DNA from: Apostichopus japonicus
Taxonomy: Eukaryota; Echinodermata; Holothuroidea; Aspidochirotida; Stichopodidae
DNA: 64,000 nt
Assembly (NCBI RefSeq): GCF_037975245.1
Contig: NC_092565.1
Coordinates: forward strand, 18,145,999-18,209,998
Direction of reading: 5' to 3'
Positions 1 to 37,863 of the stretch are shown here, piece by piece. The translations under genes and the position numbers were made by a program. The stretch's first letter is position 1; each line of letters starts with the position of its first letter. The notes under the pieces were generated by a model. That model made no database searches, was not told the DNA's origin, and saw only the letters and a program-made list of their open reading frames with translations.

Positions 1-1440
1 ATCTGACATTAATAGATATTAATGCATGTCAAAATCTTATCAAGCGTTGCTCAATTACAGCATTAAGATAACGTTAGCCGATTTCTACAGGCCACAGTTC
101 GTTAATTCATTAGTGGGGGTGGTGCCTATTTTAGTGTATATTTTACAATGTAATACAAGCAAGTTTGTTTCAATTGAGATGGAGTGCAGTGCAATCTCCT
201 TAAACGATGTCGAAAGATGATGTTGCTCTTTAGATTACCCTGGAAATAATTCACTACTATAAATCGTTTTTGAGACCCGGTATATCATTCAGGACAAATT
301 ACCTCTTGGAATACACACGACACCGGCATCTTCAAAATGTACGCAGTTACCATGTCCTTGATGGTTGCAATCCACAAGGTACGTTTCGTTTCCATTGCAG
401 TTCACGTCATTTAGATGAATATTACCAATACCTGGTCCAAAGAAAGCGCCACCAGGTGCTTCCAAAGCGCCATCAAAACCAAGCTCACAGCAAACCACCA
501 GTGCATCGAGAATATCCCAGTCATCGTCACACACTGTACCCCACATTTCGTCGAGGAAAACTTCAACACGTCCTGAAGAATTACTTGGCCCATCCACAAG
601 TCTCGTGGAACCTTCGTCTAATTGATAGATAATTTTGCAAGCTTTAAAGCTTTAAGCACAATAAAACCTCATCAATTCAAATTCATCCGTTGCTACAAAA
701 AAAAAAAACTCTTTCCATATAATTAACACGTTGCGGTCTGCAATTTTAAGTAGGTTTTGTACCGTAGTTGAATCGAATGGTAGGTAGAAATACTATATGG
801 AGCAGGTTATGTGAACTAGACTTTCATTGGACTCCAATTGGCCAATGGAGCAGCTACAATGCCATACAAAATAAGTCGTTATGGTATAAAAATTGAATTT
901 GAATTTGAATCAAACCTGTTTACCATAACCTTTGCATGTCTATGTAATATCTGGGATTAATAAGGGGTGTGTGATAAAGGTTTTATATGATTTTAAACCC
1001 GGTTTCTTACATAACATTTTACTTAGCAATTACTTCATATTCGTTAAAGATCACAATAAGATGTGTTATTGTCGTATGTTGTTTCTTAATTCCTGAATTA
1101 TTTTGGCCTCTGTTTGTATTACTATACTTTAATTGTAGTATAGTGTTATTGTCCTTATTCAGTAGTGCTTACTGTACTATTCCTTTGTTAAACATTATCC
1201 AATTCAGTTGTATAGTAAACTAAGTATAAGCTGGATGTATCTGCATAACATATTGAAACCTTTAAAGGTTATTTCTAAATAAAACAAGGGGTATAGCTGT
1301 TCGGCATCTTTGCATTCTGACACTATACATCACCCAAGTTTATGAACCTGTTTATATTGAGAACAAAGCCGAAATAAACGCTGCAAGAACCTGTGGAACT
1401 GTAGGAATTGTGAATTAAAGTTCATTTTACTTACTATAAG
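1..1440. repeat. Segmental duplicate, copy 1 (SRCR-bearing)
   Basis: This segment is recognisably the same sequence as 24490-26174. Both begin with the same run of TTAATAGATATTAATGCAT and continue through an SRCR exon, its upstream intron and up to the 3' end of the next SRCR exon. Copy 2 carries about 350 bp more in the intron (25230-25590). The window starts inside copy 1, so its left limit is unknown. Apart from the SRCR exon at 303-617 the segment is intronic; the short ORFs at 26-220 and 987-1223 have no coding character. Confidence 0.85.
303..617 (-). CDS. SRCR domain exon, type A
   Basis: This single exon encodes one complete scavenger-receptor cysteine-rich domain of 105 codons, a secreted or extracellular ligand-binding fold. 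It is read on the minus strand after an ATTAG acceptor and ends before a GTAATT donor; both junctions are phase 1. Family landmarks are the start DEGSTRLVDG, then GRVEVF, WGTVCDDDWD, VVCCELGF, the NDVNCNGNE core and the end HFEDAGVVC. It has seven cysteines: the usual six plus one next to the second. It is the 3'-most SRCR exon visible in array 1. A damaged paralogue lies at 24782-25068. Whether later exons add a membrane anchor lies outside the window. Confidence 0.88.
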
Positions 1441-1755
1441 AGCTACATATTACACCAGCGTCCATAAAGTGGGAACAGACGTGGTCAGTCATGTAAGCAC
1501 AATCAAGAAGAAAGCTCTCAAAGCCCGAGCATTCAACATTATTTAAGTGTATTACACCATTTCTTTTGGCGAAGGAACCCGAATTAAGCAATACAAGAGC
1601 CCCTGGAAATCCGAGTTGACGACAAACAACATCAGCTTCAGTAATGTCCCACAAATCGTCACAAACTGTGCCCCATTCACCATTCAAGAAAATCTCCACT
1701 CTTCCCGCTGTAGCATTCCCGTTTTCAAGACGAAGTTGTCCTTCATAGTACGAAT
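1435..1755 (-). CDS. SRCR domain exon, type B
   Basis: A complete 321-bp SRCR exon bounded by a CCTTCAG acceptor and a perfect GTAAGT donor, phase 1 at both ends. The first half (to [11 protein letters not shown]) is nearly identical to the type C exons upstream. The second half is clearly different: GALVLLNSGSF, an NNVECSG core and a DHVCSHFMDAGVICSS end. Such a mosaic could reflect gene conversion of the 5' half or relaxed divergence of the 3' half. Six cysteines are present. It contains one N-A-T glycosylation sequon. The paralogue in array 2 is split by a transposon (26174-28892). Confidence 0.88.
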
Positions 1756-2017
1756 CTGAAGGAATAGTCACAAATAGCATTTAGTTGACGACACATGAAT
1801 CTTAACAGAAAGTGTCCTCCATAATAAAATAACTTTTCTCTGTATATTGTGAGGGAAAGAATTTTACATAAAAGTTATAGTAGTGGTAGTACTACTACAA
1901 TAACAAATTAATTTACACTAAACATTTTACGAGAACTACTTTTAATGAATAAAAAGGGGTTTCTCATCATGAAATCAACAGCTGATAGAATTCTTTCTTT
2001 ACATTTATTTCACTAAC

Positions 2018-2338
2018 CGCTAAGAGCACAGCTGACGCCAGCGTCCTCGTTGTGCCCACAGTTGTGGTCAGTCGTGTGAGGACAATCAAGTAGAGACCTT
2101 TCAGAACCTGAACATTCAACGTCGTCTAAGTGTATCAATCCTGTTCCTTCTGAGAAGAAGGCGACACTAAGCGCACCAAGAGCTCTCCCATATCCCAATT
2201 GACGACAAACGACATCAGCATCAATAATGTCCCACAAATCGTCACATACTGTGCCCCATTCACCATTCAAGAACATCTCCACTCTTCCCGCTGTAGCATT
2301 CCCGTTTTCAAGACGAAGTTGTCCTTCATAGTACGAAT
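2018..2338 (-). CDS. SRCR domain exon, type C, unit 1
   Basis: This is the 3'-most unit of the array. The minus-strand exon starts after CCTTCAG and ends before GTTAGT, phase 1 at both ends, giving 107 codons. Motifs in order are [10 protein letters not shown], an N-A-T sequon, [26 protein letters not shown], the [10 protein letters not shown] core, [12 protein letters not shown] and HNEDAGVSC. There are six cysteines at the positions shared by all SRCR domains (group A-like set), yet the domain sits in a single exon, an arrangement usual for group B. The likely role is extracellular recognition of microbial or self ligands; the actual ligand cannot be read from the sequence. Confidence 0.92.
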
Positions 2339-2600
2339 CTGAAGGAATAGTCACAAATAACATTTAGTTGACGACACAAGAATCTTAACAGAAAGTGTCC
2401 TCCATAATAAAATAACTTTTCTCTGTATATTGTGAGGGAAAGAATTTTACATAAAAGTTACAGTAGTTGTAGTACTACTACAATAACAAATTAATTTACA
2501 CTAAACATTTTACGAGAACTACTTTTAATGAATAAAAAGGGGTTTCTCATCATGAAATCAACAGCTGATAGAATTCATTCTTTACATTTATTTCACTAAC

Positions 2601-2921
2601 CGTTAAGAGCACAGCTGACGCCAGCGTCCTCGTTGTGCCCACAGTTGTGGTCAGTCGTGTGAGGACAATCAAGTAGAGACCTTTCAGAGCCTGAACATTC
2701 AACGTCGTCTAAGTGTATCAATCCTGTTCCTTCTGAGAAGAAGGCGACACTAAGCGCACCAAGAGCTCTCCCATATCCCAATTGACGACAAACGACATCA
2801 GCATCAATAATGTCCCACAAATCGTCACAAACTGTGCCCCATTCACCATTCAAGAAAATCTCCACTCTTCCCGCTGTAGCATTCCCGTTTTCAAGACGAA
2901 GTTGTCCTTCATAGTACGAAT
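2601..2921 (-). CDS. SRCR domain exon, type C, unit 2
   Basis: Same architecture and splice signals as the neighbouring unit. Its protein differs from unit 1 only by isoleucine for methionine in GRVEIF and by asparagine for serine in the last residues. Its protein sequence is identical to that of unit 3, with only a few silent nucleotide differences, so these two are among the youngest duplicates. Confidence 0.92.
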
Positions 2922-3183
2922 CTGAAGGAATAGTCACAAATAACATTTAGTTGACGACACAAGAATCTTAACAGAAAGTGTCCTCCATAATAAAATAACT
3001 TTTCTCTGTATATTGTGAGGGAAAGAATTTTACATAAAAGTTACAGTAGTTGTAGTACTACTACAATAACAAATTAATTTACACTAAACATTTTACGAGA
3101 ACTACTTTTAATGAATAAAAAGGAGTTTCTCATCATGAAATCAACAGCTGATAGAATTCATTCTTTACATTTATTTCACTAAC

Positions 3184-3504
3184 CGTTAAGAGCACAGCTG
3201 ACACCAGCGTCCTCGTTGTGCCCACAGTTGTGGTCAGTCGTGTGAGGACAATCAAGTAGAGACCTTTCAGAGCCTGAACATTCAACGTCGTCTAAGTGTA
3301 TCAATCCTGTTCCTTCTGAGAAGAAGGCGACACTAAGCGCACCAAGAGCTCTCCCATATCCCAATTGACGACAAACGACATCAGCATCAATAATGTCCCA
3401 CAAATCGTCACAAACTGTGCCCCATTCACCATTCAAGAAAATCTCCACTCTTCCCGCTGTAGCATTCCCGTTTTCAAGGCGAAGTTGTCCTTCATAGTAC
3501 GAAT
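3184..3504 (-). CDS. SRCR domain exon, type C, unit 3
   Basis: The encoded domain is residue-for-residue the same as unit 2 (2601-2921). Acceptor CCTTCAG and donor GTTAGT are intact. The near-identity extends into the flanking introns, which supports recent duplication or ongoing conversion rather than protein-level selection alone. Confidence 0.92.
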
Positions 3505-3767
3505 CTGAAGGAATAGTCACAAATAACATTTAGTTGACGACACAAGAACCTTAACAGAAAGTGTCCTCCATAATAAAATAACTTTTCTCTGTATATTGTG
3601 AGGGAAAGAATTTTACATAAAAGTTACAGTAGTTGTAGTACTACTACAATAACAATATTAATTTACACTAAACATTTTACGAGAACTACTTTTAATGAAT
3701 AAAAAAGGGTTTCTCATCATGAAATCAACAGCTGGTAGAATTCATTCTTTACATTTATTTCACTAAC

Positions 3768-4088
3768 CGTTAAGAGCACAGCTGACACCAGCGTCCTCGT
3801 TGTGCCCACAGTTGTGGTCAGTCGTGTGAGGACAATCAAGTAGAGACCTTTCAGAACCTGAACATTCAACGTCGTCTAAGTGTATCAATCCTGTTCCTTC
3901 TGAGAAGAAGGCGACACTAAGCGCACCAAGAGCTCTCCCATATCCCAATTGACGACAAACGACATCAGCATCAATAATGTCCCACAAATCGTCACAAACT
4001 GTGCCCCATTCACCATTCAAGAACATCTCCACTCTTCCCGCTGTAGCATTCCCGTCTTCAAGACGAAGTTGTCCTTCATAGTTCGAAA
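3768..4088 (-). CDS. SRCR domain exon, type C, unit 4
   Basis: An intact phase 1-1 SRCR exon. The start differs from units 1-3: the acceptor is CTTTCAG and the first residues read as VSNYEG rather than DSYYEG. It has EDGN instead of ENGN, and GRVEMF. The upstream intron belongs to the second intron version of the array, with a run of A residues near 4147-4154. Units 4 and 5 form a closely matching pair. Confidence 0.92.
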
Positions 4089-4358
4089 CTGAAAGAATAG
4101 TCACAAATAACATTTAGTTGACCAAACATGAAAAGTTAATCTATAAAAAAAAGAGTCCTCCGTTACAAAAAATACTTTGCTCTATATATTGTGAGTGAAA
4201 ATGTATTTACGTAAAAGTTACAGTAGTAGCACTACTACTATAACAATTGTAATTTGCACCAAACATTTTACGAGAACTACTTTTAATGAATAAAAAAGGG
4301 TTTCTCATCATGAAATCAACAGCTGGTAGAATTCATTCTTTACATTTATTTCACTAAC

Positions 4359-4679
4359 CGTTAAGAGCACAGCTGACACCAGCGTCCTCGTTGTGCCCAC
4401 AGTTGTGGTCAGTCGTGTGAGGACAATCAAGTAAAGAACTTTCAGAACCTGAACATTCAACGTCGTCTAAGTGTATCAATCCTGTTCCTTCTGAGAAGAA
4501 GGCGACACTAAGCGCACCAAGAGCTCTCCCATATCCCAATTGACGACAAACGACATCAGCATCAATAATGTCCCACAAATCGTCACAAACTGTGCCCCAT
4601 TCACCATTCAAGAACATCTCCACTCTTCCCGCTGTAGCATTCCCGTCTTCAAGACGAAGTTGTCCTTCATAGTTCGAAA
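4359..4679 (-). CDS. SRCR domain exon, type C, unit 5
   Basis: Nearly identical to unit 4, including the VSNYEG start and CTTTCAG acceptor. The clear change is serine for arginine just after the core (GSESS rather than GSERS). Splice sites and the six-cysteine pattern are intact. Confidence 0.92.
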
Positions 4680-4949
4680 CTGAAAGAATAGTCACAAATA
4701 ACATTTAGTTGACCAAACATGAAAAGTTAATCTATAAAAAAAAGAGTCCTCCGTTACAAAAAATACTTTGCTCTATATATTGTGAGTAAAAATGTATTTA
4801 CGTAAAAGTTACAGTAGTAGCACTACTACTATAACAATTGTAATTTGCACCAAACATATTACGAGAACTACTGTTAATGAATAAAAAGGATAATCTCATC
4901 ATGAAATCAGCAGCTGATAGAATTCATTCTTTTCATTTATTTCACTAAC

Positions 4950-5270
4950 CGTCAAAAGCACAGCTGACACCAGCGTCCTCGTTGTGCCCACAGTTGTGTT
5001 CAGTCGTGTGAGGACAATCAAGTAGAGAACTTTCAGAACCTGAACATTCAACGTCGTCTAAGTGTATCAATCCTGTTCCTTCTGAGAAGAAGGCGACACT
5101 AAGCGCACCAAGAGCTTTTCCATATCCCAATTGACGACAAACGACATCAGCATCAATAATGTCCCACAAATCGTCACAAACTGTGCCCCATTCACCATTC
5201 AAGAAAATCTCCACTCTTCCCGCTGTAGCATTCCCGTCTTCAAGACGAAGTTGTCCTTCATAGTACGAAT
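4950..5270 (-). CDS. SRCR domain exon, type C, unit 6
   Basis: Intact SRCR exon with the DSYYEG start and CCTTCAG acceptor. Distinguishing residues are GYGKAL, GSESS, TTEHNC and an AFD end. It shares features with unit 5 on one side (GSESS) and unit 7 on the other (GKAL), the gradient expected when units arise by unequal exchange between neighbours. Confidence 0.92.
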
Positions 5271-5538
5271 CTGAAGGAATAGTCACAAATAATATTTAGT
5301 TGACCAAACATGAAAAGTTAATCTAAACAGAAAGAGTCCTCGGTTATAAACATACTTTTCTCTGTATATTGTGAGTGAAAGTGTTTTTACATAAAAGTTA
5401 CAGTAGTAGCACTACTACAATAACAATAGTCATTTACACTAAACATTTTGCGACAGCTACTCTTCATGTATAAAAAGGGTATTCTCATCATAAAATCAAC
5501 AGCTGATAGAATGCATTCTTTACATTTATTTCACTAAC

Positions 5539-5859
5539 CGTCAAGAACACAGCTGACGCCAGCGTCCTCGTTGTGCCCACAGTTGTGGTCAGTCGTGTGA
5601 GCACAATCAAGTAGAGACCTTTCAGAGCCTGAACACTCAACGTCGTCTAAGTGTATCAATCCTGCTCCTTCTGAGAAGAAGGCGACACTAAGCGCACCAA
5701 GAGCTTTTCCAAATCCGAGTTGACGACAAACGACTTCAGCATCAGATATGTCCCACAGATCGTCACAAACTGTGCCCCATTCACCATTCAAGAAAATCTC
5801 CACTCTTCCCGCTGTAGCATTTCCGTCACCAAGACGAAGTTGTCCTTCATAGTACGAAT
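5539..5859 (-). CDS. SRCR domain exon, type C, unit 7 (5'-most intact)
   Basis: This unit is the first in transcription order and the most divergent of the seven. It has [24 protein letters not shown] and [17 protein letters not shown] is shared with the exons at 37-38 kb, so this unit resembles the array 2 lineage more than its neighbours do. Splice sites are intact and phase 1-1. No signal-peptide exon was recognised upstream, so the start of the gene is not identified. Confidence 0.9.
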
Positions 5860-5979
5860 CTGAAGGAATAGTCAAATAATATTTAGTTGACCAAACATGA
5901 AAAATAAACCCACGTAGATAGTCTTCCAACATAAAATAACTTGTGTCTATTTTTACAATTTTACATTTAATTAACTAAC

Positions 5980-6006
5980 CGTCAAAAGTACAGTTGACGC
6001 CGGTGT
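5980..6006 (-). pseudogene. Remnant of an eighth SRCR unit (3' end only)
   Basis: Just upstream of unit 7 the sequence repeats the last bases of an SRCR exon and its GTTAGT donor (about 27 exon bases), then breaks off into unrelated sequence at about 6007. This marks the edge of the tandem array and suggests that a further unit was lost by deletion or was never completed. Confidence 0.75.
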
Positions 6007-12429: not shown

Positions 12430-12985
12430 ATGAGCTAAATCGATGATATGTCGATTTAAATAGGTATATGTCAATTTGAGTTGCTAGAAACTGGTATAAG
12501 TCCAAGGAAATTGACTTCTACCGATTTCATTCGACATATCATCGATTTAAACTGGTAGATTCCAATTTAAATTGACATATACCGATTTATTTTACATATC
12601 ATCGATTTAAATTGGTATATGTCGATTTAAATCGGTATATGTCGATTTAAACTGGTATAAGTCGAATTAAATTGGTATATGTCGATTTGAATTGACATAT
12701 ACCGATTTAATTTGACATATCATCGATTTAAACTGGTATACTTCGATTTAAATTGACACATACCGATTTGTTTTACTTATCATCGATTTAAATTGGTATA
12801 TGTCGATTTAAATCGATGATATGTAGAATTAAACTGGTATATGTCGATTTAACTCGATTATATGTAGAATTAAACTGGTATATGTCGATTTAAATCGGTA
12901 GAAGTCAATTTAAGCTGTTGGAAACTGGTATAATTCGAAGGAAATTGGTATATGTCGATTTACATCGGTATAAGTCGATTCCCCA
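12430..12985. repeat. Palindromic tandem array, about 20-bp unit
   Basis: The core unit reads about GTCGATTTAAATCGGTATAT and holds the palindrome CGATTTAAATCG. Direct and inverted versions (GTATATGTCGATTTAAA and TGACATATACCGATTTA) are interspersed, and a larger module of about 60 bp, with TGACATATACCGATTT then TCATCGATTTAAA, recurs at about 12570, 12690 and 12750. The single strand could fold into many hairpins. There is no coding content. Confidence 0.85.
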
Positions 12986-24489: not shown

Positions 24490-26174
24490 CATCTGACATT
24501 AATAGATATTAATGCATATCAAAATCTGATCAAGCGTTGCCTAATTTCATCATTAAGATAACTTAAGCCGATTTCTACAGGCCACAGTTCGTTAATTCAA
24601 TAGTGGGAGTGGTGCCTATTTTAGTGTATATTGTACAATGTAATACAAGCAAGTTTGTTTTAATTGAGATCGACTGCAGTGCAATTGACGTAAACGATGT
24701 CGAAGATGATGTTGCTTTAGATTACCCTCGAAATAATTCACAACTATAAAACGTTTTGAGATTCGGTATATGATTCAGGACATCTTTCAAAATGTACGGC
24801 ATCTTCAAAATGTACGCAGTTGCCACGTCCTTGATGGTTGCAATCCACAAGATACGTTTCGTTTCCATTGCAGTTCACGTCTTCGAGATGAATATTACCA
24901 ATACCCTTTCCGAAGACAGCATCACCAGTAGCATTCAAAGCGCCATCGAAACCAAGCTCACAGCAAACCACCAGTGCATCGAGAATATCCCAGCCCTCGT
25001 CACACACTGTACCCCAACACGTCCTGAAGAATTATTTGTCCTATTCAGAAGTCTCGTAGAACCTTCGTCTAATTGAAGATAATTTTGCAAGCTTTAAACG
25101 TCAAATTCATCCATGGTTACATACAGAAATTAACAAAACACTATTTCCATATAATTAACACGTTGCAGTCTGCAAATGTAGGTAGAGTTAGTACCGTAGT
25201 TGAATCGAATGGAGCAGGGTATATTAAAGGGTGTGAAAACTCACGCAAAAAGAAAGTCTAATACCGGTAATCTGACCTAGTTTAGAATGAGGTGTAACAG
25301 AAGTGTTAGACACCACCATCGATCCCAGAAAATACACACACAGCTTGCTACCGTCGGTAATTAAACACTAGTGTACAGTCAGTACATACAGCTGCGGTCA
25401 ATACCCATAGCACAGTGTATAAACGATACAGCCATGGACATCTCAGGTCTAGCTAAAGATAACAAGGTATCACGTTTCATTACTGTCTTCATTTTGTAGC
25501 GACACGAACAAAACATCACTTGCAAGCAATTAACGGCAAGTTAACTTTTTCAGATGGCCGCACGCGGTTTGGGCGAGTCTTCAATGCCTTTAACTAGACT
25601 CCCGTTGGACTCCAATTGGCCAATGAAGCAGCTACAATGGCAGACAAAATAATTTTTTGTGATATCAAAATTGAATGTGGATCCAACCTGTTTACCATAA
25701 ACTTTATGATATCTGAGATCTATACGGGTGATATTAAACGGTTTCATACATCGTTTGCTTAACAACAAATGAAGAAAGGATATTCAATTCGACAAGTCGC
25801 TAACAAATTACTAAGCAATTACTTCGTATTTGTTTAAATTCACAATAAGATGTGTTATTGTCGTATGTTGTTTCTTAATTCCTAAAGTTTGTTAGCCTTT
25901 GTTGGTATTACTAGCATTTTATTGAAGTACGGCCGTTATTGTCATTATTTAGTGGTGTTTACTGTAGCATTCCATTCTTGTACATTATCCAATTTAGTTG
26001 TATAGTAAACTAACTATATGTTTGATGTATCTGCATGTTATTTTTAAATAAAACAAGGTGTGTAGCTGTTCGTTATCTTTTCATTCTGAAACTCTACATC
26101 ATCCAAGTATATGAAAAATTGTTTATATTAAAAAAGGCCAAAATAAACGCTGCTGAGAGCCCGTTGAACTTACC
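24490..26174. repeat. Segmental duplicate, copy 2
   Basis: Paralogue of 1-1440. The same blocks appear in order: ATCTGACATTAATAGATATT, an SRCR type A exon (damaged), TGGACTCCAATTGGCCAATG, AATAAGATGTGTTATTGTCG, and the approach to a type B exon. It carries about 350 bp of extra intron at 25230-25590. Confidence 0.85.
24782..25068 (-). pseudogene. Damaged SRCR type A exon
   Basis: This is the paralogue of 303-617. The acceptor (ATTAG) and the core (DILDALVVCCELGF, NGNETYLVDC) survive. A 22-bp deletion after GTACCCCA removes the segment around WGTV and shifts the frame. At the 3' end the last cysteine and the donor have been replaced by a short duplication of TCTTCAAAATGTACG. The exon cannot encode a complete SRCR domain. 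Confidence 0.85.
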
Positions 26175-26296
26175 GTAGGAGCTACATCTTACACCAGCGA
26201 CCATAGAGTGGGAACAGATGTAATCAGTCATGTAAGCACAATCAAGTAGAGAGCTCTCAAAGCCACAGCATTCGACATTATCTAAGTGTACAACAC

Positions 26297-28697
26297 CAGG
26301 GGCGGATCCAGGGGGGGCCGACCCGGCCCAGCCCCCCCCCCCCTTTTTGGAAATCAGTTGCGTTTTTTTATGTGGGAGTACTTTAAATTCCTAATAGGCA
26401 TAACTTGGTGAAAGAAAAGCCTAATATATATCCAGCTGTTCTTCCCTGAAACGCGATCGTTTTTATTCCAAATTTGAAACTAAGGCAATTACCAGGCCTA
26501 CGCGACATCACGTATTAATTAGATACGGCTCAGTACTATAGTGCTGACTATTACTGTCAGGGAAAATCAATGCACAGTTAGCAAGTATATCATAATTATC
26601 TGAATGAAACGGGGTGTAGGCGGTTTTACACTATCTAACGCAACGTAGTCGCCAAGAACCTGAAGTATTTTTAAGGGAGGGCCCAAGGAACATGAACTTA
26701 TAGCATGCTCCTCGTGGTGAAGCATAATTGCACCTATTAGGTGAACTGAGTGTACTGTTAATAGTAGGAGAGACTAGTGTAGGTTCTTATGACCAACTAG
26801 ACCGGTTTCTGCTCTCAAACTTTATAGGAGCTTCATCAGTAGTAGCCTTTGAATATTTTATATTCGGCCTGGGCGTCTCGTTCTCAAAATGCATCTACTT
26901 TCTGTGCACGAGTTTTTATGGGCTCATAATGCAGCTATAAGAGCATCTAAAAGAGCTTCGTGTGAACCTTGAGAGTCAGCTGATTCTTCGTTAGTATGAA
27001 ACCTTGAGTTAACAAGTAAACCTTTGAGATTTTGGTTTTATTTTTTGATTTATTATATTATATATAATAATTTGGTCGCTGTCGGCAAATTTTGGGTCTG
27101 TCGGCAAAAGGAGAAAAGGTGAAGAGAGCGGAAGGGGAAGAAAGAAGGAAAGCTGAATAGAGAAAAGGAGAACGGGAGCTTCTTTATCGGTTATTTCGAT
27201 TTTCCAGTTCTTCATCTGATAAACTCATTCACCAATCCAATCACCCGACGCCTGCAAGTTAAAAACCTCTCGGCAAATAACTGATCATGTCACGGCCGTC
27301 AGTATAGCTACTGTAGCCAGGCTCAGCTAGACGAGTGCCAGAATCGCCGGCAACTCAGTGAAAGAAATGGAATTAAAGGCTTCCGTATAGGCCGTAGCCC
27401 ATGAGTCGTGCTATCGTGTGACAACGTGTTGTTATTATCCTCTGTTTAGAATGACGTCATCGCAGATGTCATTCGTTCTCCGTGGAAAACTTAAGGACAC
27501 GGCTCACGAATTGTACACAATTTTTAACGTTTCTCGCTTGTATATCAATGAATGTTGTTATTTCTCATTACCGGAAAGTTTTCTGAACATTTTCATCACG
27601 AAGTTTCACTATTTCAACGATCGGTGAAAGAGAAAACACAGTTCGATAATTGGTCCCAATTAATTCTTCTTCTGCCGACTGCCATAAAAATAATATCGAG
27701 ATGGAAATTCTACGGTGCCAAATTTGACTTAAAATATGCACCAGATTGCATCTAAGGACGTTTCAAAACTAAAAATTTTCCAAAACTTAGACCCCTCCCC
27801 CATTTCAGTCACCACTTCCAGATCCGTCGGCAAATCTAATTTGACTTAAAATATACACCAGATTGCATCTAAGGACGTTTCAAAACTAAAAATTTTCCAA
27901 AGGGGAGGGGAAAGCCCCTCCCCTTAGACCCCTCCCCCATTTCAGTCACCACTTCCAGATCCGTCGGCAAATCAAATTTGACTTACAATATGCACCAGAT
28001 TGCATCTAAGGACGTTTCAAAACTAAAAATTTTCCAAAGGGGAGGGGACACCCCTCCCCTTAGACCCCTCCCCCATTTCAGTCACCACTTCCAGATCCGT
28101 CGGCAAATCAAATTCTCCACACCCCCCCCCAACAAAAAAACCTTCGCTACGCCCCTGAATAGGAAGCAAGAAATAATCCACAAATTCCGATATATTTTCG
28201 GTCGGTGATCCGTTTCCGCTTATTATCAGGCCCTCCCTTGAAAATACTTCAGGTTCTTGGCGACTACGTTGCGTTAGATAGTGTAAAACCGCCTACACCC
28301 CCATTTCATTAATAAGTATATCATAATTATCTCATTGAACATATCTTGTTTTATGTTTTTTCTTGGGGTGAATCTGGCGTCATAATTTTCGCGCAAAAGA
28401 AAAAACGAATCGACGCAATAATAGTGTATCCATTGTACATGCACTGTTGAGCGTTCTTAAATATGTGTCTATCGAGCACAAATATGTGCACAAAAAAGCG
28501 TGTCTGCAACGTTTCTGGTTTTTCTAGTTTTTGGCGAAATGTTTCACCATTTTGCATCTAAGCACTCACAATTAACCAAAAATTTCCAAGGGGGAGGGGG
28601 CCCCTCCCCCTAGACCCCTCCCCCAGGACGCAGATCACTAAAGTGCTACCATCGGGATGTCGGCCCCCCCTTTCTCAAAATCCTGGATCCGCCCCTG
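26297..28697. mobile_element. hAT-like element inserted in SRCR exon, 5-bp TSD
   Basis: The ends are perfect 16-bp inverted repeats, CAGGGGCGGATCCAGG and its complement, flanked by AACAC on both sides (26292-26296, 28698-28702). The intact paralogue at 1435-1755 shows the unoccupied site. Inside, 26611-26683 and 28229-28301 form a near-perfect 73-bp inverted pair enclosing about 1.5 kb, so at least one further element is nested. No transposase ORF is visible. Confidence 0.9.
27736..28130. repeat. Three tandem copies inside the element
   Basis: Units of about 110-145 bp share CACCAGATTGCATCTAAGGA, CAAAACTAAAAATTTTCC, TAGACCCCTCCCCCATTTC and CACTTCCAGATCCGTCGGC. A partial fourth copy lies at 28553-28625. 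Copy 1 lacks the GGGGAGGGG stretch present in copies 2 and 3. Confidence 0.8.
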
Positions 28698-29109
28698 AAC
28701 ACCATTTCCTTTGGCGAAGAAACCCAAATTAAGTAAATCAAGAGCCCCTTCAAATCCGACAAACTACTTCAGCATCACTAATGTCCCACAGATCGTCACA
28801 AACTGTGCCTCATTCACCATTAAAGAAAATCTTAACTCTTCCAGCTGTAGCATTGCCGTCTTCAAGACGAAGTTGTCCTTCAAAATACAAATCTAAAGGA
28901 ATAGTCACAAATCACATTTAGTTGACCAAACATGAAGAGTTAAGCCCAAACTGTAAGAGTCTTTCTAGTTATAGTATTAGTAATAATAAAATAGCAATAC
29001 GTACTTGCACTCAACATTTTATGACAACTACTGTTAATGTATTACAAGGATATTTTTATCATGAAATCAACAACTGATAGCATCAATTCTTTACATCTAT
29101 TTCACTAAC

Positions 29110-29417
<308 letters not shown>

Positions 29418-29512
29418 CGAAAGGAATAGTCACAAAAAACATTTAGTTGACCAAACATGAAAGGTACACCCAAACTGTAAGAGCCTTTTTAACATTAAAG
29501 TTATAGTATTAA

Positions 29513-31026
29513 TGTAACGCCGGGGGAAAGGATGTTAGGTGGTGACATTTCTGGGGGGTGGGGTGATGGGAGCTCTGGGTCTCTGCCGATGACGACAAGA
29601 ATGGAATAGACGAATGGATGGTTTTTGTACTAGTCCATGTGTATTGAATCTACTAGCGTGCTATCTGACACCGACTAGCGAGCTCTACGTAAAAAGGATA
29701 GGAAAACGATGTCTCATAAGTAAAAGCCATTTACAAATAGATAAAGGGAAAATCTTAACATTACAAGAATAAGGAAACAACAATTTTTGGCAAACAATTA
29801 AGTAAGACACTTTAATAAATGAAAACTAAAGGACAGTTACACTGCAATGAGAATGCTCCTATTAAAGTTAATTAGGTATCTAGAGTACTCCTTTAATACT
29901 TAAATACAGGGACGGCTCCTTTAATTACGTGTGGTCATGTGACCATGTACAGAGTGAACATTACCTAAGTTTACAATTCCGATTAGGAATTGACTAGTAA
30001 CGAAATTATGGCAAAGCAAATACAAATGCCTGTTATTCCCCTTACAACGATTTGTTGTCGGTTATTCACCTTATAACCATTTATCCTCAACTTGTAACCT
30101 ATCAAAATGGCTCCAAAACAACGTTTGCATATTAGCTAACTTTCCAAAGTTATAATTAAAAAGGTGTGCATATTTCCCAGTACAAGAAATTAATCTCTAT
30201 TGAAAACCTAAAAAAAGTATCCAACATTTAGTTAAAACAACCTCTCAGTACACATTAATAACATGTCAATAAAAACAACTCGGCCTCAAGTTAAGACTAT
30301 TACATCTAACGACTCATGGGCGCGGCTATCTTAAATACAAGTACTTCACTAAATCAGGGCGCTATGCGAAAATATAAGTTTACTATGACGTAAGGTCCCC
30401 TGTTAAGGCTACAATACAATATGTTCATGTGACGTACGTAAATAACGATCTTAGGAACCACTGATATCATTAAGTATGGAGATATAAAATTATGATGAAG
30501 GTTGATTAAAGGTTCTGGAAAAGCACTTATACTATTATTGACGAAATTTTAACTCAGCATTTTACAGAAATATTGGATTGAAAAGTTACGAAGTATGCTG
30601 AAAAGTTAAGCCTAGTCTAAACTACTCAGGCAGTAGCCTACCATTGTAATAGTGTTTACAGTACAAATAGGGCCAACCGTGACTCTGAACTTGATCGAGA
30701 GTAACAAAATCTAACTGATATATTATGAATTACAGAACCCTTGTTTGCTTAAGAGATATAAAAAGAAGAGAAATTATATAATTACCTCATAGAGCTATTA
30801 AAAAAACAACTTCAAATGCTGCAAAAGCAGACAAAAACGTAGCTAAAAGTTGAAGGTATTGAAGGTGTTGTTATAACTAGTAAAAGTAACGTAGTGTCTT
30901 AGAACAATGGATTTCAAGGCTACCCTACGCCCTGAAAGGTCTCCCAATCTGAACGGAAGGGTTTGACCAGTTCCGGTGTTCAAATTCTAAGGCAGGCCAG
31001 CTATGCCAAAAGGGCATGGCTCTACA
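29513..31026 (-). repeat. LTR copy A (3' LTR in element orientation)
   Basis: 1514 bp with ends TGTAACGCCGGGG and GGCTCTACA. From 29667 on it matches 35504-36900 almost base for base. The first 154 bp (29513-29666) have no counterpart in copy B. It is directly followed by the polypurine tract complement at 31027-31040. The weak ORFs inside are not genes. Confidence 0.8.
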
Positions 31027-31603
31027 TCCTCCCCTGCTCAAATTAGGTTTGTCCTCAAAGCAGAGACTATTACAAGTAAAGAAAAGTGAACATAGCTACC
31101 TGAAAGGAAAATTATTTAACCTACATACACAGTATGAAATAATATGAAGTAGAGAAAATAAAGAAAGAAAATATAAACAAACTTCGACATTAATAGGCCA
31201 TGGGCCATGGCCCATTTAGATGCATTTTGGTTCATAGGGTCAGTGGTGAAAGTAAATTCCTCTGAAATAGTTAGTATAAATATGTACTGAATCAAGATTG
31301 ACTTGTTCTTTTTAGTTCTAGTGGCACAAACAGTCAGAGTTTAAGAAAAACTATAAAAAATAAAAAAAAATTACCCACTGCTCTTGAAATAGCTTATCTA
31401 ATTGGTCCGTATTTCCAGGTCAAACCTTAATTGACCAATCACAGCTGCTGATCTGTGGTCTAGTTACACCATGGTTACACACACTGCACAAACATATGGC
31501 TGCTCCCACACTCACATGCTGTATGCATGTGTGTGCACGGACAAACACGAATATTTCATCCTTTTCTGACAGCTCTTTTGCCAAATTCAAGGATTGTGTT
31601 TAA

Positions 31604-31817
31604 AGGTGGAGTGTGTTACCAGGTATTTATGGTGCATTAGCTAGAGATGTCACTTCAAAATACTGTATAGAGAGCTCAAAATCTTTAGCTGATTTACAGG
31701 ATCATGAGCATGGTGAGTCGTGCATTGGCTATCATCGTGAGTGCTACCAGAGATTCACAGATGTGAATAAACTCAACAAGACTGAAGAAAGGCTTGCTAA
31801 AAATCCGCCCAAAGATG
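31604..31817 (+). CDS. Exon 1 of YHxxC-type zinc-binding-like gene
   Basis: The plus-strand frame runs from RWSVLPGIYGAL to an AAAGATG/GTAAGC donor in phase 1. It contains HEHGESCIGYHRECYQRFTD, a Cys-Tyr-His-Cys arrangement followed by a lysine-rich segment. Many uncharacterised, multicopy proteins of cnidarians and echinoderms share such YHxxCYxxFT motifs; no function is established. The frame continues upstream through SFAKFKDCV but a TAA at 31601-31603 interrupts it, and no convincing start codon follows, so the copy may be dead or use an unseen upstream exon. Confidence 0.55.
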
Positions 31818-32194
31818 GTAAGCAAACATTTAAATAATGTTATGAGTATAAACCCAATTTCCAACTGAAATTAGAAATGTCAATCTAACATTTTGTGGAA
31901 TGTGGTTGTGCTTTTATTTAAGTTTTTACATTCGTTCTTGACGGTTTGTTATTGTTTTGTAGCCTCGTCCTGCTGTCATTTTGCTGTGCAAAATGCATCA
32001 ACCTGATGTAATCGTGAATTTATTTGGGTTAGGACTAGAAACCGTTAGATGTACAAACAACGGGGATACATTTACAATCAAAATCTCTATTTAGTGTGTG
32101 TTAAGTTAGATTTTGCATGTGTTTAACAAATAGAAGTACCTGTCATGGGGGGAGGGGGGAGTTTGATATTTTACTTTTAGACTTTCTACAGTAG

Positions 32195-32590
32195 TTGCTC
32201 CATGATTTTATAAAATAAGACGAGGGCCCCAAACCAACGCCCAAATTTTTATTTGTACAAATACTTGTTAATTTTTTATATGGGCGGAGGGTGAAATTTG
32301 ATTATCGATCAATGATTTGATAAAATGAGACGAGGGCCCCAAACCCACGCCCAATTTTTTATTTACTTGGTTGATTTTTTTATATGGGTGGAGGTCGATA
32401 TTTCATAATTGCTCAATGATTTGATAAAATGGGACAAGGGCCCCAAACCCACGCCCAATTTTTCATTTGTACAAATACTTGGTTGATTTTTTTTATATGG
32501 GTGGAGGTCGATATTTCATTATTGCTCAATGATTTGATAAAATGAGACAAGGGCCCCAAACTCATGCCCAATATTTCATTTGTAAAAAAG
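32195..32590. repeat. About 118-bp tandem repeat in the intron
   Basis: Four copies share TGATTTGATAAAATGAGACGAGG, GCCCCAAACCCACGCCCAA, TTTTATTTGTACAAATACTTG and TATATGGGTGGAGGTC. The first and last are the most divergent. They lie between the two exons of the zinc-binding-like gene. Confidence 0.85.
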
Positions 32591-32747
32591 AAGTTATTGA
32601 TTATAACAAGTTTAGATAAACTGGACTAGGTTTGTCAATTCAAGTTGTAAAACGGTGTGGGTTAATGAATTCAGAGCAAATTTTTTAAACCTTTTTTATT
32701 TTAAAGTTGTATTTAATTTTTATCTTTCCCTTGTTTGAATGTTACAG

Positions 32748-33340
32748 ATAATTCCACTGATGATGACAACGACGATGTTGAACCTGTCTGTAAGAAGCGA
32801 ACACTAAGATCAAACGTAGCTGGACCATCTTCCTCAGGCAGACCACACATACTTCGAGTGTCGTGCATCATTTGTCACGCTGATCACTGGATAAGGGACA
32901 AGGTGACCTGTAAGAGACGAAGAGAGCCCCTGACTCGTTACGGGACAATAGATGCTGGGAAACTCAGAAAGGCTGCTGAGCTGACATGTAACGAATCCCT
33001 TCTTCTGCAAATGCGTGCCAGAGACCTTGTTGCTTCCGAGGCAAGATACCATCCGAGTTGTTTTCGCAACGCAACCAGATTTCTCACTCGGAAGTTGCCC
33101 AAAGAAACAACAGATATTCTATATGCAGAGTCTTATGAAAAGTTTTGCCACAATGTCATTGATGAACAGATTCTTAAACAACAGGGTGCGATCAGGATGA
33201 CAAAACCCATAGCCCAGTTCATCAAAACGGTTAAAGAAGTTCAAGGGATTGATGCCTCAAGTTACAGATCCTACAACTTAAAAAAGCGTCTCCAAGGCTC
33301 CTATCCACAACTTCAGTTTTTGCGACCAACGTACATGTAG
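32748..33340 (+). CDS. Exon 2 of YHxxC-type zinc-binding-like gene
   Basis: It starts after a GTTACAG acceptor and joins exon 1 in phase 1 (G plus AT gives Asp). It encodes about 197 residues: an acidic stretch (DDDNDDVE), a basic patch (KKRTLRS), CIICHADHW with a further cysteine (VTC), then LVASEARYHPSCFRNATRF and a C-terminal segment ending PTYM. The paired CxxC and YHxxC elements look like zinc ligands and repeat the exon 1 motif. An AATAAA at about 34404 may serve the 3' end. The gene lies antisense to the LTRs that flank it, which suggests it was trapped in, or carried by, the element. Confidence 0.65.
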
Positions 33341-35350
33341 GAATGTGCGAACTAAATATAGTGCATCATTAGTTACATGTTAAAATAATGTGTAAGAAAA
33401 TAGAGGGATCTGTAGGACTTGTATACATGAAGAAAACAAATTCAGTAGTGTCAAGAGTTGGGGCTATGCATTTAGTTTGAAGAAAAAAAATCAAATTGTA
33501 CTTTGTTGTAACTTTCAGTATCAGTTGGAAAAGGTGTAGGACTATAATGTGATTCGAAATGGTCCGATGAAGTAATATCTCACATTATTGTTTATTCAAT
33601 TTGATGCAAATTTCCACACAAATTGTTGTTTTATTTCATGTTAGTTTAATCGTGGCTGACACCAGTCTCCAGAACACCATTTCAGTATGGAATCTAATAT
33701 GCAATAATCAAGGACATAGTCAGTGCACCACACCCTATTGAATATTGACTATGCGATCACTCAACACCCCCCCCCCCCCCCGCAAAAGAAAAACGAGGCT
33801 CGATTTTTGTGGGTGGGTCCTGTGTGTACAGTCGTTTAACTTGTTGTTGACGAGTAATTGCCACCCATTCACCATGGATATTCATAAGAGTACAACTTAC
33901 TGATACTATCTATAGTGTATGTTCTTGATTATAATGCGATCAAGTTCTGAAAATCTAAACCTTTCAGACTTGATGTGAATGTGTGAATGACAAACGTTGC
34001 ATTTATCTTAGTGTCCACAATACAATGGTAGACAAAATGCCACTTTCATATGTGAGTATCTGATTCTGCTCATCTTAATATGATGTTTGGAGCTGTTTGT
34101 TTGATCAAAACAATGCACATGTACATGTTTGTACAGGGAATGTATCTGCGAAATAGATCATTTTTTAGTTGCCAGTGCGAGTCAGGACCATCAATTTAAA
34201 GCCAAGTTTCTTTTCAGAACCACATGAATAGAAAGTTTCATGTGCAATGTTATGACCAACTTTGTGTGTTAATGCATATTACAAATGAGATTTAAAGTTT
34301 TTTTGTGAAGGTAGTTAGGTGAAGCGCTGCTTGTAACAAAACATTGTACATGTAGTCTGTTGTGAACTTTGGTGTTCTGAACATGTTGAAAAGATTTGCA
34401 GTTAATAAATATAAAGAAGAACATATCTGAGTTTGTCACTTTTTTAGGGCTGTTTAGACATACTTTGTTTGTTAAGAAATTTTATCGGAATCTCCAGTTT
34501 GATTATCATTAATATTAAATAGTGTGCTAGAAATAGTGTATTTCAACAATTTAACAATGATCAAACTGGCCTATCCCCACCACAAATAAACACCAAGTAC
34601 AGTTGAAAAATATAATTCCAATAGCCATATGCCTATACAAACTTTTAGAAATGTTGTGCCATACATATTCTTTACAATTATAAAGGTTTCCACATCAAAA
34701 TGTGAATTTGGGGGGGGGGGGGGGGGGTGGGGGTAAACTGTTTCTATCTGGAGACAGACTAATTATTTTTGGTCAAGTGAGGGCGCTGTTTTTCTTATGT
34801 TTTTCTTTATGTTGGAAAATGTGACATTTTATCCGTGATTTACATATTATAGTGCCACTTGTGAGCAAAAGAACAATTTGATTCTTTATTAAGCACATAT
34901 TATCTATAACTCAGACTATATTTCATGTAATACCACTCCGGACGTAACAAGAATCATTTTCTGGAAGGATTTCAGAGCCACGGTCCATGGCCTATAAGAA
35001 CACATACAGTACAACCCTGTAGACTACCATACATAGTTTACCAACACAAACTAAACTGTTTTCTGCTACACCACCTGCATAAGTCATTAGAAAGTGTAAC
35101 TATCTACTGAATTTAGAGCACATGCATTCAAGATGAATTCGTTTAAGTAAAAAAGGAAAATGCATATTATTATTCCACCTATTAAAATATAGCGTGACAA
35201 AATCTGTAAAGCCACTCTGCATGACAATGAAAATTAAGACATCTGAAAAACCAATATTTGACACCTATAAATACAAAGTCTAGTTCAGAAGCTGAAGTTT
35301 ACTCGAAAAGAAATTTAGTTGGTCTAGCAAAACCCTATTTTGCTCCTTCA
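33341..35350. other. Downstream region of the plus-strand gene
   Basis: Probably 3' UTR to about 34430, then unique AT-rich sequence with a long G run at 34711-34727. No further gene is supported. Confidence 0.5.
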
Positions 35351-35353
35351 ACT

Positions 35354-35499
35354 GTTGGGGTCCAGTTGGTCCTTGACGTCCACTACGGAGCACCAATGGG
35401 TCATGCGTGGCCACGAGAACCCTGGGGTCCAGCTGGGCCTTGGTATCCCTTGTTTCCAATTGATCCTGAAGGTCCAGCATCACCATCAATACCAGCTAC
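35354..35499 (-). pseudogene. Fragment of a fibrillar-type collagen helix
   Basis: The minus strand encodes about ten consecutive Gly-X-Y triplets (GIDGDAGPSGSIGNKGYQ, then GPAGPQGSRGHA). A GGA glycine codon has become TGA, followed by PIGAP, and after a frameshift by GRQGPTGPQ. The collagen repeat is unmistakable but the reading frame is broken by one stop and one shift. It sits immediately inside LTR copy B and in the same orientation, with no neighbouring collagen exons, so it looks like a captured host exon or cDNA piece. Confidence 0.75.
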
Positions 35500-35503
35500 G
35501 CCA

Positions 35504-36900
35504 GACACCGACTAGTGAGCTCTACGTGAAAAGGAAAGGAAAACAATGTCTCATCAGTAAAAGCCTTTAACAAATTAGATAATAGTGAAAATCTTAACAT
35601 TACAAGAATAAGGAAACAACAATTTTTGGCAAATAATTAAGTAAGACACTTAAATAAATGAAAGTAAAACTAAAGGAAAGTTACACCGAAATGAGAATGC
35701 TCCTATAAAAGTTAATTAGGTATCTAGAGTACTCCTTTAATAATTAAATACAGGGACGGCTCCTTTAATTACGTGTGGTCATGGGACCATGCACAGAGTG
35801 AACATTACCTAAGTTTACAATTCCGATTAGGAATTGACTAGTAACTAAATTATGGCAAAGCAAATACAAATGCCTGTTATTCCCCTAATAACGATTTGTT
35901 GTCGGTTATTCACCTTATAACCATTTATCCTCAACTTGTAACCTATCAAAATGGCTCTATAACAATCGTTGCATATTAGCTAACTTTCCAAAGTTATAAT
36001 TAAAAGGTGTACATATTTCCCAGTACAAGAAATTAATCTCTATTGAAAACCTAAAAGAAGTATCCAACATTTAGTTAAAACAACCTTTCAGTACACATTA
36101 ATAACATGTCAATAAAAAAAACTCGGCCTCAAGTTCACATTGACATTACGAACATGATTTAAGACTATTACATCTAACGACTCATGGGCGCGGCTATCTT
36201 AAATACAAGTACTTCACTAAATCAGGGCGCTATGCGAAAATATAAGTTTACTATGACGTAAGGTCCCCTGTTAAGGCTACAATACAATATGTTCATGTGA
36301 CTTACATAAAATACGATCTTAGGAACCACTGATATCATTAAGTATGGAGATAGAAAATTATGATGAAGGTTGATTAAAGGTTCTGGAAAAGCACTTATAC
36401 TATTATTTACGAAATCTTAACTCAGCATTTTACAGAAATATTGGATTGAAAAGTTACGAAGTATGCTGAAAAGTTAAGCCTATAGTCTAAACTACTCAGG
36501 CAGTAGCCTACCATTGTAAGAGTGTTAACAGTACAAATAGGGCCAACCGTGACTCTGAACTTGATCGAGAGTAACAAAATCTAACTGATATATTATGAAT
36601 TACAGAACCCTTGTTTGCTTAAGAGATATAAAAAGAAGAGAAATTATATAATTACCTCATAGAGCTATTAAAGAAACAACTTCAAATGCTTCAAAAGCAG
36701 ACAAAAACGTAGCGAAAAGGTCAATAGATATCTTGAAGGTGTTGTTATAACTAGTAAAAGTAACGTAGTGTCTTAGAACAATGGATTTCAAGGCTACCCT
36801 ACGCCCTGAAGGGTCTCCCAATCTGAACGGAAGGGTTTGACCAGTTCCGGTGTTCAAATTCTAAGGCAGGCCAGCTATAACAAAAGGGCATGGCTCTACA
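35504..36900 (-). repeat. LTR copy B (5' LTR in element orientation), truncated
   Basis: 1397 bp matching 29667-31026, with a 24-bp insertion near 36136-36159 and scattered substitutions. It lacks the 154 bp that carry the TGTAACGCC end of copy A; in place of these lies the collagen fragment. Its other end, CTCTACA at 36900, abuts SRCR intron sequence. Confidence 0.85.
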
Positions 36901-37033
36901 TAAGTAATAATAAAATAGCAATATTAACTTGAACTTATCATTTTATGACAACTACTTTTAATGTATTAAAAAGATATTTTCATCATGAAATCAACAACTG
37001 ATAGCATATATTCTTTACATTTATTTCACTAAC

Positions 37034-37345
37034 CATCAATAAAAGTACAGCTGACGCCAGCGTCCTCGTTGTGCCCACAGTTGTGGACAGTTGTGTGAGC
37101 ACAATCAAGTAGAGAGCTTTCAGAGCCTGAACACTCAACGTCGTCTAAGTGTATCAATCCTGTTCCTTCTGAGAAGAAGGCGACACAATGCGCTCCAAGA
37201 GCTCTGTCAAATCCTAGTTGACGACACACTACTTCAGCATCACTAATGTCCCACAGATCGTCACAAACTGTGCCCCATTCACCATTCAAGAAAATCTCAA
37301 CTCTTCCAGCTGTAGCATTGCCGTCTACAAGACGAAGTTGTCCTT
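37034..37345 (-). CDS. SRCR domain exon, array 2, unit 1
   Basis: A 312-bp intact SRCR exon in phase 1-1. It begins at a TATTTAG acceptor 12 bases further in than type C exons use, because the original acceptor position reads TTTCG. The domain opens [10 protein letters not shown] with an N-A-T sequon, then [32 protein letters not shown] and HNEDAGVSC. An extra cysteine occurs in GAHCVAFF, making seven. It is the last intact domain before the LTR insertion. Confidence 0.88.
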
Positions 37346-37551
37346 CTAAATACAAATCGAAAACATGAAAGCTAAACCCAAACTGTACGAGTCTTTATTT
37401 AATCTTAAAGTTATAATATAAGTAATAATAAAGTAGCAATATTAACTTGCACTTAACCTTTTACGACAACTACTGTTAATACATTAATAGTATATTTTCA
37501 TCATGAAATCAACAACTGACAGCATTAATTCTTTACATTTATTTCACTAAC

Positions 37552-37863
37552 CATCAAAAGAAGCACAGCTGACGCCAGCGTCCTCGTTGTGCCCACAGTT
37601 GTGGAAAGTCTCGTAAGCACAATCAAGTAGAGAGCTTTCAGAGCCTGAACACTGAACTTCGTCTAAGTGTATCAATCCTGTTCCTGCTGAGAAGAAGGCG
37701 TCACTATGCGCTCCAAGAGCTCTGTCAAATCCTAGTTGAAGACAAACTACTTCAGCATCACTAATGTCCCACAGATCGTCACAAACTGTGCCCCATTCAC
37801 CATTCAAGAAAATCTCAACTCTTCCAGCTGTAGCATTCCCGTCTACAAGACGAAGTTGTCCTT
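37552..37863 (-). CDS. SRCR domain exon, array 2, unit 2
   Basis: A 312-bp intact exon with the shifted TATTTAG acceptor and GTTAGT donor. Distinctive residues are VVCLQLG (Arg to Leu in the conserved CRQLG), SDAFFSAGTG, LDEVQC and YETFHNC. Six cysteines are present. This unit is more diverged from its neighbours than the units of array 1 are from one another. Confidence 0.88.

Follow-up and report, generated by a model that had tools for sequence, protein, structure and literature searches.

The question raised by this locus is how a row of exons encoding scavenger receptor cysteine-rich (SRCR) domains comes to be separated by introns that seem as uniform as the exons themselves. In the window, by which we mean the whole 64,000-nucleotide stretch of Apostichopus japonicus contig NC_092565.1 that was analysed (one assembled sequence), we identified a minus-strand array of eight intact 321-bp phase 1-1 SRCR exons at positions 1435-5859. 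These lie at 1435-1755 (E1), 2018-2338 (E2), 2601-2921 (E3), 3184-3504 (E4), 3768-4088 (E5), 4359-4679 (E6), 4950-5270 (E7) and 5539-5859 (E8). The seven introns between them (I1-I7) each measure 262-270 bp, giving a repeat period of 583-591 bp; a preliminary description of seven exon-intron units with this period was thus borne out, with an eighth intact exon to be added, and the two adjoining exons said to encode identical domains proved to be E3 and E4. AG/GT splice sites and phase 1-1 are kept in all eight exons, none of which contains a stop codon. Additionally, a divergent SRCR exon (E0, minus strand, 303-617, limits set by eye; profile match 2.6e-36) lies 3' of the array, in a region with a Pfam SRCR match of 2.4e-27 over 301-651. 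Next to E8, the donor end of an SRCR exon from a broken ninth unit, interrupted by unrelated DNA, is found at 5980-6006 on the minus strand (limits again by eye). The gene containing the array extends past the edge of the window.

The domain analysis covered an SRCR profile and five chosen proteins. E3 scored 106.7 bits against Pfam PF00530 (cut-off 26.1), and 27 distinct solved sequences matched, including CD163, CD5L, CD6, DMBT1 and Mac-2 binding protein. Each of E1-E8 encodes six cysteines and no more, at matching positions, which is the pattern of SRCR group A, defined by six conserved cysteines and by the absence of the additional pair that marks group B (PMC13228809); the eight cysteines and four disulphides of group B, as in DMBT1, are found in none of the eight. 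An orthologue of DMBT1 would also be expected to have SID, CUB and ZP domains encoded by one gene together with its SRCR domains. For SRCR8 of DMBT1, the cation side-chain ligands are D1019, D1020, D1023, D1026, D1058, D1059, N1081 and E1086 (PMC7043408). Judged by spacing, and as residue presence only, all eight of these positions are occupied in each of E2-E8 and three of the eight in E1. At the residue level, E2-E8 are therefore predicted to be capable of DMBT1-type cation-dependent ligand binding, and the product would be a putative DMBT1-like binding protein, multivalent and dependent on cations.

The uniformity of the introns turned out to depend on where in the array it is assessed. Within a left block comprising I1-I4 and E2-E4 (block A, 1756-3767, minus strand), introns differ by 0.4-3.1 % and exons by 0.6-1.9 %, with variable columns numbering 4/262 in I2-I4 and 6/321 in E2-E4; here the earlier claim of equal uniformity in introns and exons stands. 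Across E2-E7 and I2-I7, however, it does not, as 55 of 259 intron columns vary compared with 16 of 321 exon columns (Fisher p = 3e-9), making introns ∼4 times more variable. I1-I4 are separated from I5-I7 by 11.5-16.2 % divergence and 12-13 gap positions, and I7 (5271-5538, minus strand) constitutes a third type, 11.2-11.9 % from I5/I6 and 13.9-14.7 % from I1-I4, so that the array introns fall into two or three families. Exons E2-E7 differ by 0.6-3.5 % (E2-E4 from E5-E7 by 1.9-3.4 %), with amino-acid variation at 9 of 107 codons. The end units are more divergent: E8, on the right, lies 5.9-7.8 % from E2-E7, whilst E1, the leftmost exon, lies 20.9-22.4 % from E2-E8 and 19-25 % from every other exon compared in the exon alignment. 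Given the distance between the two sets of introns and that of E1 from the other exons, the units cannot be called nearly identical throughout. Introns diverging much more than exons had been named in advance as grounds for abandoning exchange among units; such divergence does occur between blocks, and points to exchange taking place in blocks, leaving exchange itself unrefuted. The proposed stepwise sharing of variants by neighbours held in part: an exact Mantel-type permutation gave p = 0.003 for E2-E7, 0.009 for E2-E8 and 0.0008 for I1-I7, but at exon columns 65 and 233 E2 agrees with its non-neighbours E5/E6 (at 233 also with E7) and not with E3, an observation that runs against exchange between neighbours only.

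Some of the units are themselves hybrid. Intron I5 (4089-4358, minus strand) resembles I4 over columns 17-92 and I6, with one exception, over columns 99-268; a single switch, at plus-strand positions 4260-4267, fits 40 of the 41 informative columns. An order probability of 6e-10 calculated for I5 was set aside, as it presupposes a perfect single switch and one of the 41 columns breaks the pattern. On either side of the switch lie two 591-bp segments on the minus strand, S1 (3672-4262) and S2 (4263-4853), that align without gaps and differ at only 3 of 591 positions, and the exons at their cores, E5 and E6, differ at 2 of 321. The combination of the I5 switch with near-identical flanking segments, a tandem duplicate with a hybrid junction at the homologous position, is the mark of out-of-register exchange, and so few differences are what a single crossover joining an intron of the I4 type to one of the I6 type is expected to leave. 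Furthermore, E1 is identical to E3 over its 5' 114 bp and differs at 67 of 207 positions in its 3' part, which places a breakpoint within an exon. Elsewhere, block A segments differ by 4-9 per 583 bases, and among the six segments compared divergence spans 0.5 % to 7.6 %.

A second copy of the gene region allowed these patterns to be set against another array. This decayed paralogue (gene 2, minus strand, 24491-39122) lies outside the 1760-5940 interval of the preliminary description, and its ends match window positions 1-780 (left) and 5849-5966 (right). Its units F3-F5 (37034-38381, minus strand) are spaced at 517-518 bp and have in common a derived deletion in the intron, close to the acceptor, together with a changed acceptor; in the alignment the deletion is absent from F1, F2, F6 and E1-E8. 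F2 (29110-29418, minus strand) is a pseudo-exon with a broken frame. F1 (26170-28892, minus strand), interrupted by a transposon-like insert, is again hybrid, being array-like in its 5' part and E1-like in its 3' part, where it shows 21/133 differences to E1 and 44/133 to E3. Exons differ by 5.1-7.0 % among F3-F5, by 8.7-11.6 % between F3-F5 and E2-E7, and thus cluster by array, units resembling those of their own array more closely than those of its paralogue, as concerted evolution entails; E8 is intermediate, at 6.1-7.4 % to E2-E7 in this comparison and 8.7-10.6 % to F3-F5. In the exon tree, support was 77 for E2-E7 as a whole, 56 for E8 with the F units and weak (38-54) for groups within E2-E7; like the reliance on one assembled sequence, these values count against the reading of exchange given below. 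Introns of the two arrays are 20-25 % apart over the first 134 alignment columns. The gene 2 array therefore has its own homogenised units, and unit content differs between two paralogous arrays in the same sequence.

Taken together, the intron hybrid I5 and the exon hybrid E1, the near-fresh 591-bp duplicate, the blocks, the divergent end units and the clustering by array make it very probable that, in a multi-SRCR-domain gene, unequal homologous exchange between adjoining units has both multiplied a single module, a phase 1-1 SRCR exon with its short intron, and held the copies alike, a case of local concerted evolution. Mispaired units would exchange anywhere along the repeat, whole modules would be gained or lost with the reading frame preserved, and hybrid units would be retained at the junctions. 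The hybrids, the duplicate and the clustering likewise uphold the original proposal of homogenisation by unequal crossing-over or conversion through local exchange. Of these two processes, crossing-over would appear to be behind most of the array pattern, and the number of units is predicted to vary between individuals.

The strongest alternative is that, besides crossover, exon-centred gene conversion has operated, with short tracts of about exon length spreading one SRCR version over older and separate intron families. We consider this possible, though on balance doubtful. It derives from the comparison of synonymous with intronic divergence that had been suggested as a check: silent divergence between E2-E4 and E5-E7 is 0.039 and intron divergence between I1-I4 and I5-I7 is 0.138, a ratio of 0.28 (bootstrap 0.07-0.56), whilst between the two arrays the same ratio is 0.84 (0.45-1.41). 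Such closeness of silent exon sites where the introns of the two blocks differ does not readily follow from plain crossover that ignores exon limits. Moreover, the introns flanking E7 lie 7-28 % from block A per 44-column bin, compared with 0-4.5 % in the bins of the exon itself, and the agreement of E2 with E5/E6 noted above would also fit. Set against this, silent changes are scarce (2-3 per pair over ∼71 sites), the two bootstrap intervals overlap, and variable 4-fold sites (5/46) are not significantly fewer than variable intron columns (55/259; p = 0.11). E5 and E6 largely resemble A-type exons on B-type introns, a junction that accounts for part of the effect. In a simulation of exon-blind exchange (150 seeds, one parameter set; 64 dropped for having fewer than six units; 37 usable runs), a ratio of ≤ 0.28 arose in 2 of the 37 usable runs; such values do occur, but exon-blind crossover does not readily yield them. 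Silent-site uniformity across intron families thus hints, inconclusively, at exon-biased conversion. A more specific and rather improbable version is that conversion repeatedly copies an intact, predicted cation-binding SRCR exon over units with separate intron histories, E1, with three of eight ligands, having mostly escaped; were this so, homogenisation would amount to repair that preserves multivalent binding sites.

Still less likely is that the array arose in one recent burst of serial duplication, exchange not continuing, and that its units are alike only through youth. The latest duplications are indeed recent, as the small differences within block A and between S1 and S2 attest. Segments of very different depth nonetheless stand side by side, hybrid units require exchange among units that had already diverged, and interior units cluster by array whilst the end pair E1/F1 retains a 1:1 likeness. 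The closest segments are 0.5-1.5 % apart, within the range that allelic differences in a marine invertebrate could span, and an assembler might have chained alleles or repeat copies in tandem. We regard such an artefact as very improbable: no exact copies occur among the six segments compared, and the hybrid junction, the 12-13 gap positions that set the intron families apart and the presence of a second array at 517-518 bp with changes of its own are unlike chained alleles. Selection on the introns themselves, through RNA or regulatory sites, is the least credible reading, as it fits nothing beyond the uniform introns as such, an Rfam scan at gathering scores gave no match anywhere in the window, and the divergence of introns, from block to block as well as from array to array, speaks against an intron function.

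Neighbour-unit unequal exchange accordingly remains our preferred reading, and growth or shrinkage of a gene by module duplication and neighbour swapping is an already known route for such genes. The observation is sound, informative and ordinary in kind. The value of the array is as a small, readable case of an immune-type gene gaining and losing binding domains: its modules are short (∼585 bp), its breakpoints are well placed, its introns fall into two or three families, and the paralogous array serves as internal control. As one long read spans the array, allele lengths, exchange rates and any exon preference of conversion are directly measurable in individuals. Such measurement is harder in DMBT1, where the repeat units are larger.

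Among more distant sequences, a genome contig search returned 25 bacterial metagenome-assembled loci with SRCR domains, which at 42-59 % identity are too distant to bear on the array, and of four pattern matches in viral contigs none was confirmed as an SRCR relative. A search of titles and abstract openings, with most subscription journals outside its range, found no report on an invertebrate SRCR exon array that dealt with homogenised introns or unequal crossing-over, a result that shows little.

The closest known systems, as far as the available text of the cited accounts extends, are as follows. In echinoderms, sea urchin SRCR families show one domain per exon (with one exception), domain-level duplication and tandem clusters (PMC10855680), and the sea cucumber family shares group A and its six cysteines (PMC13228809); the available text deals with numbers of genes and domains, exon organisation and phylogeny, and neither homogenised introns nor hybrid units feature in it. 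The sea urchin SpTransformer (Sp185/333) immune family resembles the array in intron types common to several genes, a mosaic intron and both duplication and exchange (PMC8634487), but there whole genes of another protein family are involved and not exons within one gene. In vertebrate CD163/WC1, SRCR domains cluster by species group, which is ascribed to gene conversion (PMC2906472), although this concerns genes of a multigene family, not adjoining exon-intron units, and comes without an intron comparison. Human LPA kringle IV type 2 likewise repeats modules of exon plus intron, in 1 to >40 copies, and variants found on several copies are ascribed to duplication or gene conversion (PMC4378929); its 5.5-kb units, however, hold two exons and two introns, encode another domain and have a measured copy number. 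Human DMBT1 (SALSA, gp340) evolves in the same way. Its SRCR domains, too, are arranged in tandem within a genomic tandem repeat and are very closely alike in sequence, SRCR1-13 being 88-100 % identical with 9 of 109 residues variable (PMC7043408), much as in the 107 codons of E2-E7, and its cation ligands are kept in E2-E8. It differs in being type B, with four disulphides (PMC7043408), where the array exons have six cysteines, and in having SID domains between its SRCR domains (PMC4851238). Finally, human alleles carry 7-20 or 7-21 domains, with CNV1 mutations at 0.7-2.7 % per generation (PMC4851238, PMC9038570); the copy-number variation predicted for the sea cucumber array is thus, in human DMBT1, a measured fact.

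Eight SRCR exons (E1–E8, numbered left to right) were located on the minus strand at window positions 1435–5859, with the gene read right to left. All are 321 bp long, free of stop codons and bordered by AG before the exon and by GTAAGT or GTTAGT after it; as every exon begins and ends in phase 1, any number of them would splice in frame. The seven introns among them (I1–I7) measure 262, 262, 262, 263, 270, 270 and 268 bp, and the domain encoded by E3 scores 106.7 bits against the Pfam SRCR model. E0 (about 303–617), an SRCR exon of greater divergence, lies to the left, and to the right of E8 the donor end of an exon from a broken ninth unit (5980–6006, limits set by eye) adjoins unrelated DNA.

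The preliminary description held that introns in this array are as uniform as exons. This is true of the left block, where 6/321 columns vary among E2–E4 and 4/262 among I2–I4 (Fisher p = 1.0), with 9/262 variable across I1–I4, but not of the array as a whole, in which 16/321 exon columns (E2–E7) and 55/259 ungapped intron columns (I2–I7) are variable (p = 3e-9; counts omitting the divergent end exons E1 and E8, as well as I1). Introns I1–I4 diverge from I5–I7 by 11.5–16.2 %, plus 12–13 gap positions, and I5 and I6 from I7 by 11.2–11.9 %; thus, two or three intron families lie under one exon family. E1 stands 20.9–22.4 % apart from the remaining exons, and E8 differs from E2–E7 by 5.9–7.8 %. 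The identity of neighbouring domains, also described earlier, is borne out by E3 and E4, which agree over all 107 encoded residues.

Several units carry signs of exchange. At the columns separating I4 from I6, I5 matches I4 over columns 17–92 and I6 over columns 99–268, such that a single switch at 4260–4267 (+ strand coordinates) fits 40/41 columns, the lone exception being column 165. Flanking this switch, two 591 bp segments (3672–4262 and 4263–4853) differ at three bases, with no gaps. A hybrid intron with such a segment pair is the expected outcome of a single crossover in which units paired out of register and an I4-type intron recombined with one of I6 type at the corresponding position. 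E1 is likewise hybrid, its first 114 bp being identical to E3 and the following 207 bp showing 67 differences. Calculated over all possible unit orders, neighbours resemble each other more than chance order predicts (p = 0.003 for E2–E7, 0.009 for E2–E8 and 0.0008 for I1–I7), as had been proposed; much of this effect is probably due to block structure, and the rule is broken at columns 65 and 233 of E2, which are shared with E5 and E6.

A decayed paralogous copy of the window's left 6 kb, gene 2, occupies about 24491–39122; its left end (24491–25212) matches 1–780 and its right end (39010–39122) matches 5849–5966. Its SRCR exons comprise F1, interrupted by a transposon-like insert; F2, with a broken frame; F3, F4 and F5, spaced at 517–518 bp; and F6, which is truncated and followed by intron remnants without exons. 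The right end (38480–39122), with a truncated exon and two exon-less intron remnants, looks as though units had lost their exons by deletion. Exon divergence is 5.1–7.0 % among F3–F5, 0.6–3.5 % among E2–E7 and 8.7–11.6 % between these sets, and an exon tree groups the F units with 95 % support and E2–E7 with 77 %, placing E8 with the F units at only 56 %. The introns before F3–F5 share a derived deletion adjoining the acceptor, absent from F1, F2, F6 and array 1, that looks to come with a new acceptor site. The 3' part of F1 differs from E1 at 21/133 positions, versus 44/133 from both E3 and E8, so that E1 and F1 retain a one-to-one likeness there, while the 5' part of F1 is mostly F-like. Concerted evolution through local exchange classically shows interior units that follow their own array and an outer edge that stays orthologous; the clustering of interior units by array, with an orthologous edge in E1/F1, fits this pattern.

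The F1 insert (26297–28697) has inverted ends CAGGGGCGGATCCAGG, is flanked by a short repeat, AACAC, noted by eye, and contains a 137 bp tandem repeat (27786–28114). Within an intron of gene 2, between F2 and F3, lies an LTR-like element of ∼7.4 kb (about 29512–36901), with end repeats of ∼1.4 kb that are 94 % identical; no clear target-site duplication was seen by eye, and its open frame at 32717–33337 gave no Pfam match. Elsewhere, a + strand open frame (41502–42482) matching reverse transcriptase (Pfam RVT_1, 6e-10) is probably a LINE fragment, nested tandem repeats with units of 20, 41, 60 and 181 bp are dense at 12446–12972 alongside inverted-repeat stretches, and about 58 copies of a 34 bp unit (94 % matches) fill 57907–59889. 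An SRCR exon fragment at 47352–47537 lies on the + strand, whereas the other SRCR exons found run the opposite way. SRCR domains 42–59 % identical to E3 are also encoded at 25 bacterial MAG loci, labelled Gammaproteobacteria in 15 cases and Myxococcota or Myxococcales in four.

Conversion biased towards exons is a possible addition to local exchange in array 1, as protein selection does not account for uniform silent sites. Between blocks, silent divergence is 0.039 (E2–E4 versus E5–E7) and intron divergence 0.138 (I1–I4 versus I5–I7), a ratio of 0.28 (bootstrap 0.07–0.56). The ratio is 0.84 (0.45–1.41) between arrays (E2–E7 versus F3–F5; first 134 intron columns), 0.73 (0.16–1.81) within gene 2 (F3 versus F4 and F5; one intron pair) and 2.5 (0.4–7.9) within the left block (E2 versus E3 and E4; I1 and I2 versus I3 and I4). 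These intervals overlap, however, and counts are small (5/46 fourfold sites variable versus 55/259 intron columns, p = 0.11). Moreover, E5 and E6 partly resemble A-type exons (those of the left block) joined to B-type introns. Exon-blind exchange gave a ratio ≤ 0.28 in 2/37 usable runs of a simple simulation (one parameter set, 150 seeds, 64 dropped for < 6 units; of the 86 kept, 37 had ≥ 6 pairs in the intron range). We take exon bias as a lead.

In the predicted product of array 1, all eight domains (E1–E8) have six cysteines in the same places. Using the residue list for DMBT1 SRCR8 in PMC7043408, matched by spacing, E2–E8 possess all eight side-chain cation ligands, whilst E1 has three of eight, with E, N and N at three more places and V and M at the last two; D, E, Q and N are described there as interchanging at such places in other SRCR domains. 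The nine codons with amino-acid variation among E2–E7 (1, 3, 12, 22, 52, 81, 91, 106 and 107) include no ligand or cysteine. Seven near-identical, putatively cation-dependent domains in a row may confer avidity for repeated ligands, with unit number setting reach, by analogy with DMBT1, where a Streptococcus mutans strain bound by the long allele is reportedly not bound by a short one (PMC9038570).

Judged by cysteine pattern, array 1 is not a DMBT1 orthologue. It joins an already known class of SRCR and other module arrays. Human DMBT1 has the same design, with copy-number variation measured and a high mutation rate reported (PMC4851238, PMC9038570), and LPA KIV-2 is comparable but built from another domain (PMC4378929). 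Gene conversion has been proposed for CD163-family SRCR domains (PMC2906472), and in a sea urchin cluster each exon encodes one SRCR domain, with a single exception; expansion of sea urchin SRCR genes is reported to proceed domain by domain (PMC10855680). Within this class, the worth of array 1 lies in its clear junctions and its paralogous control.
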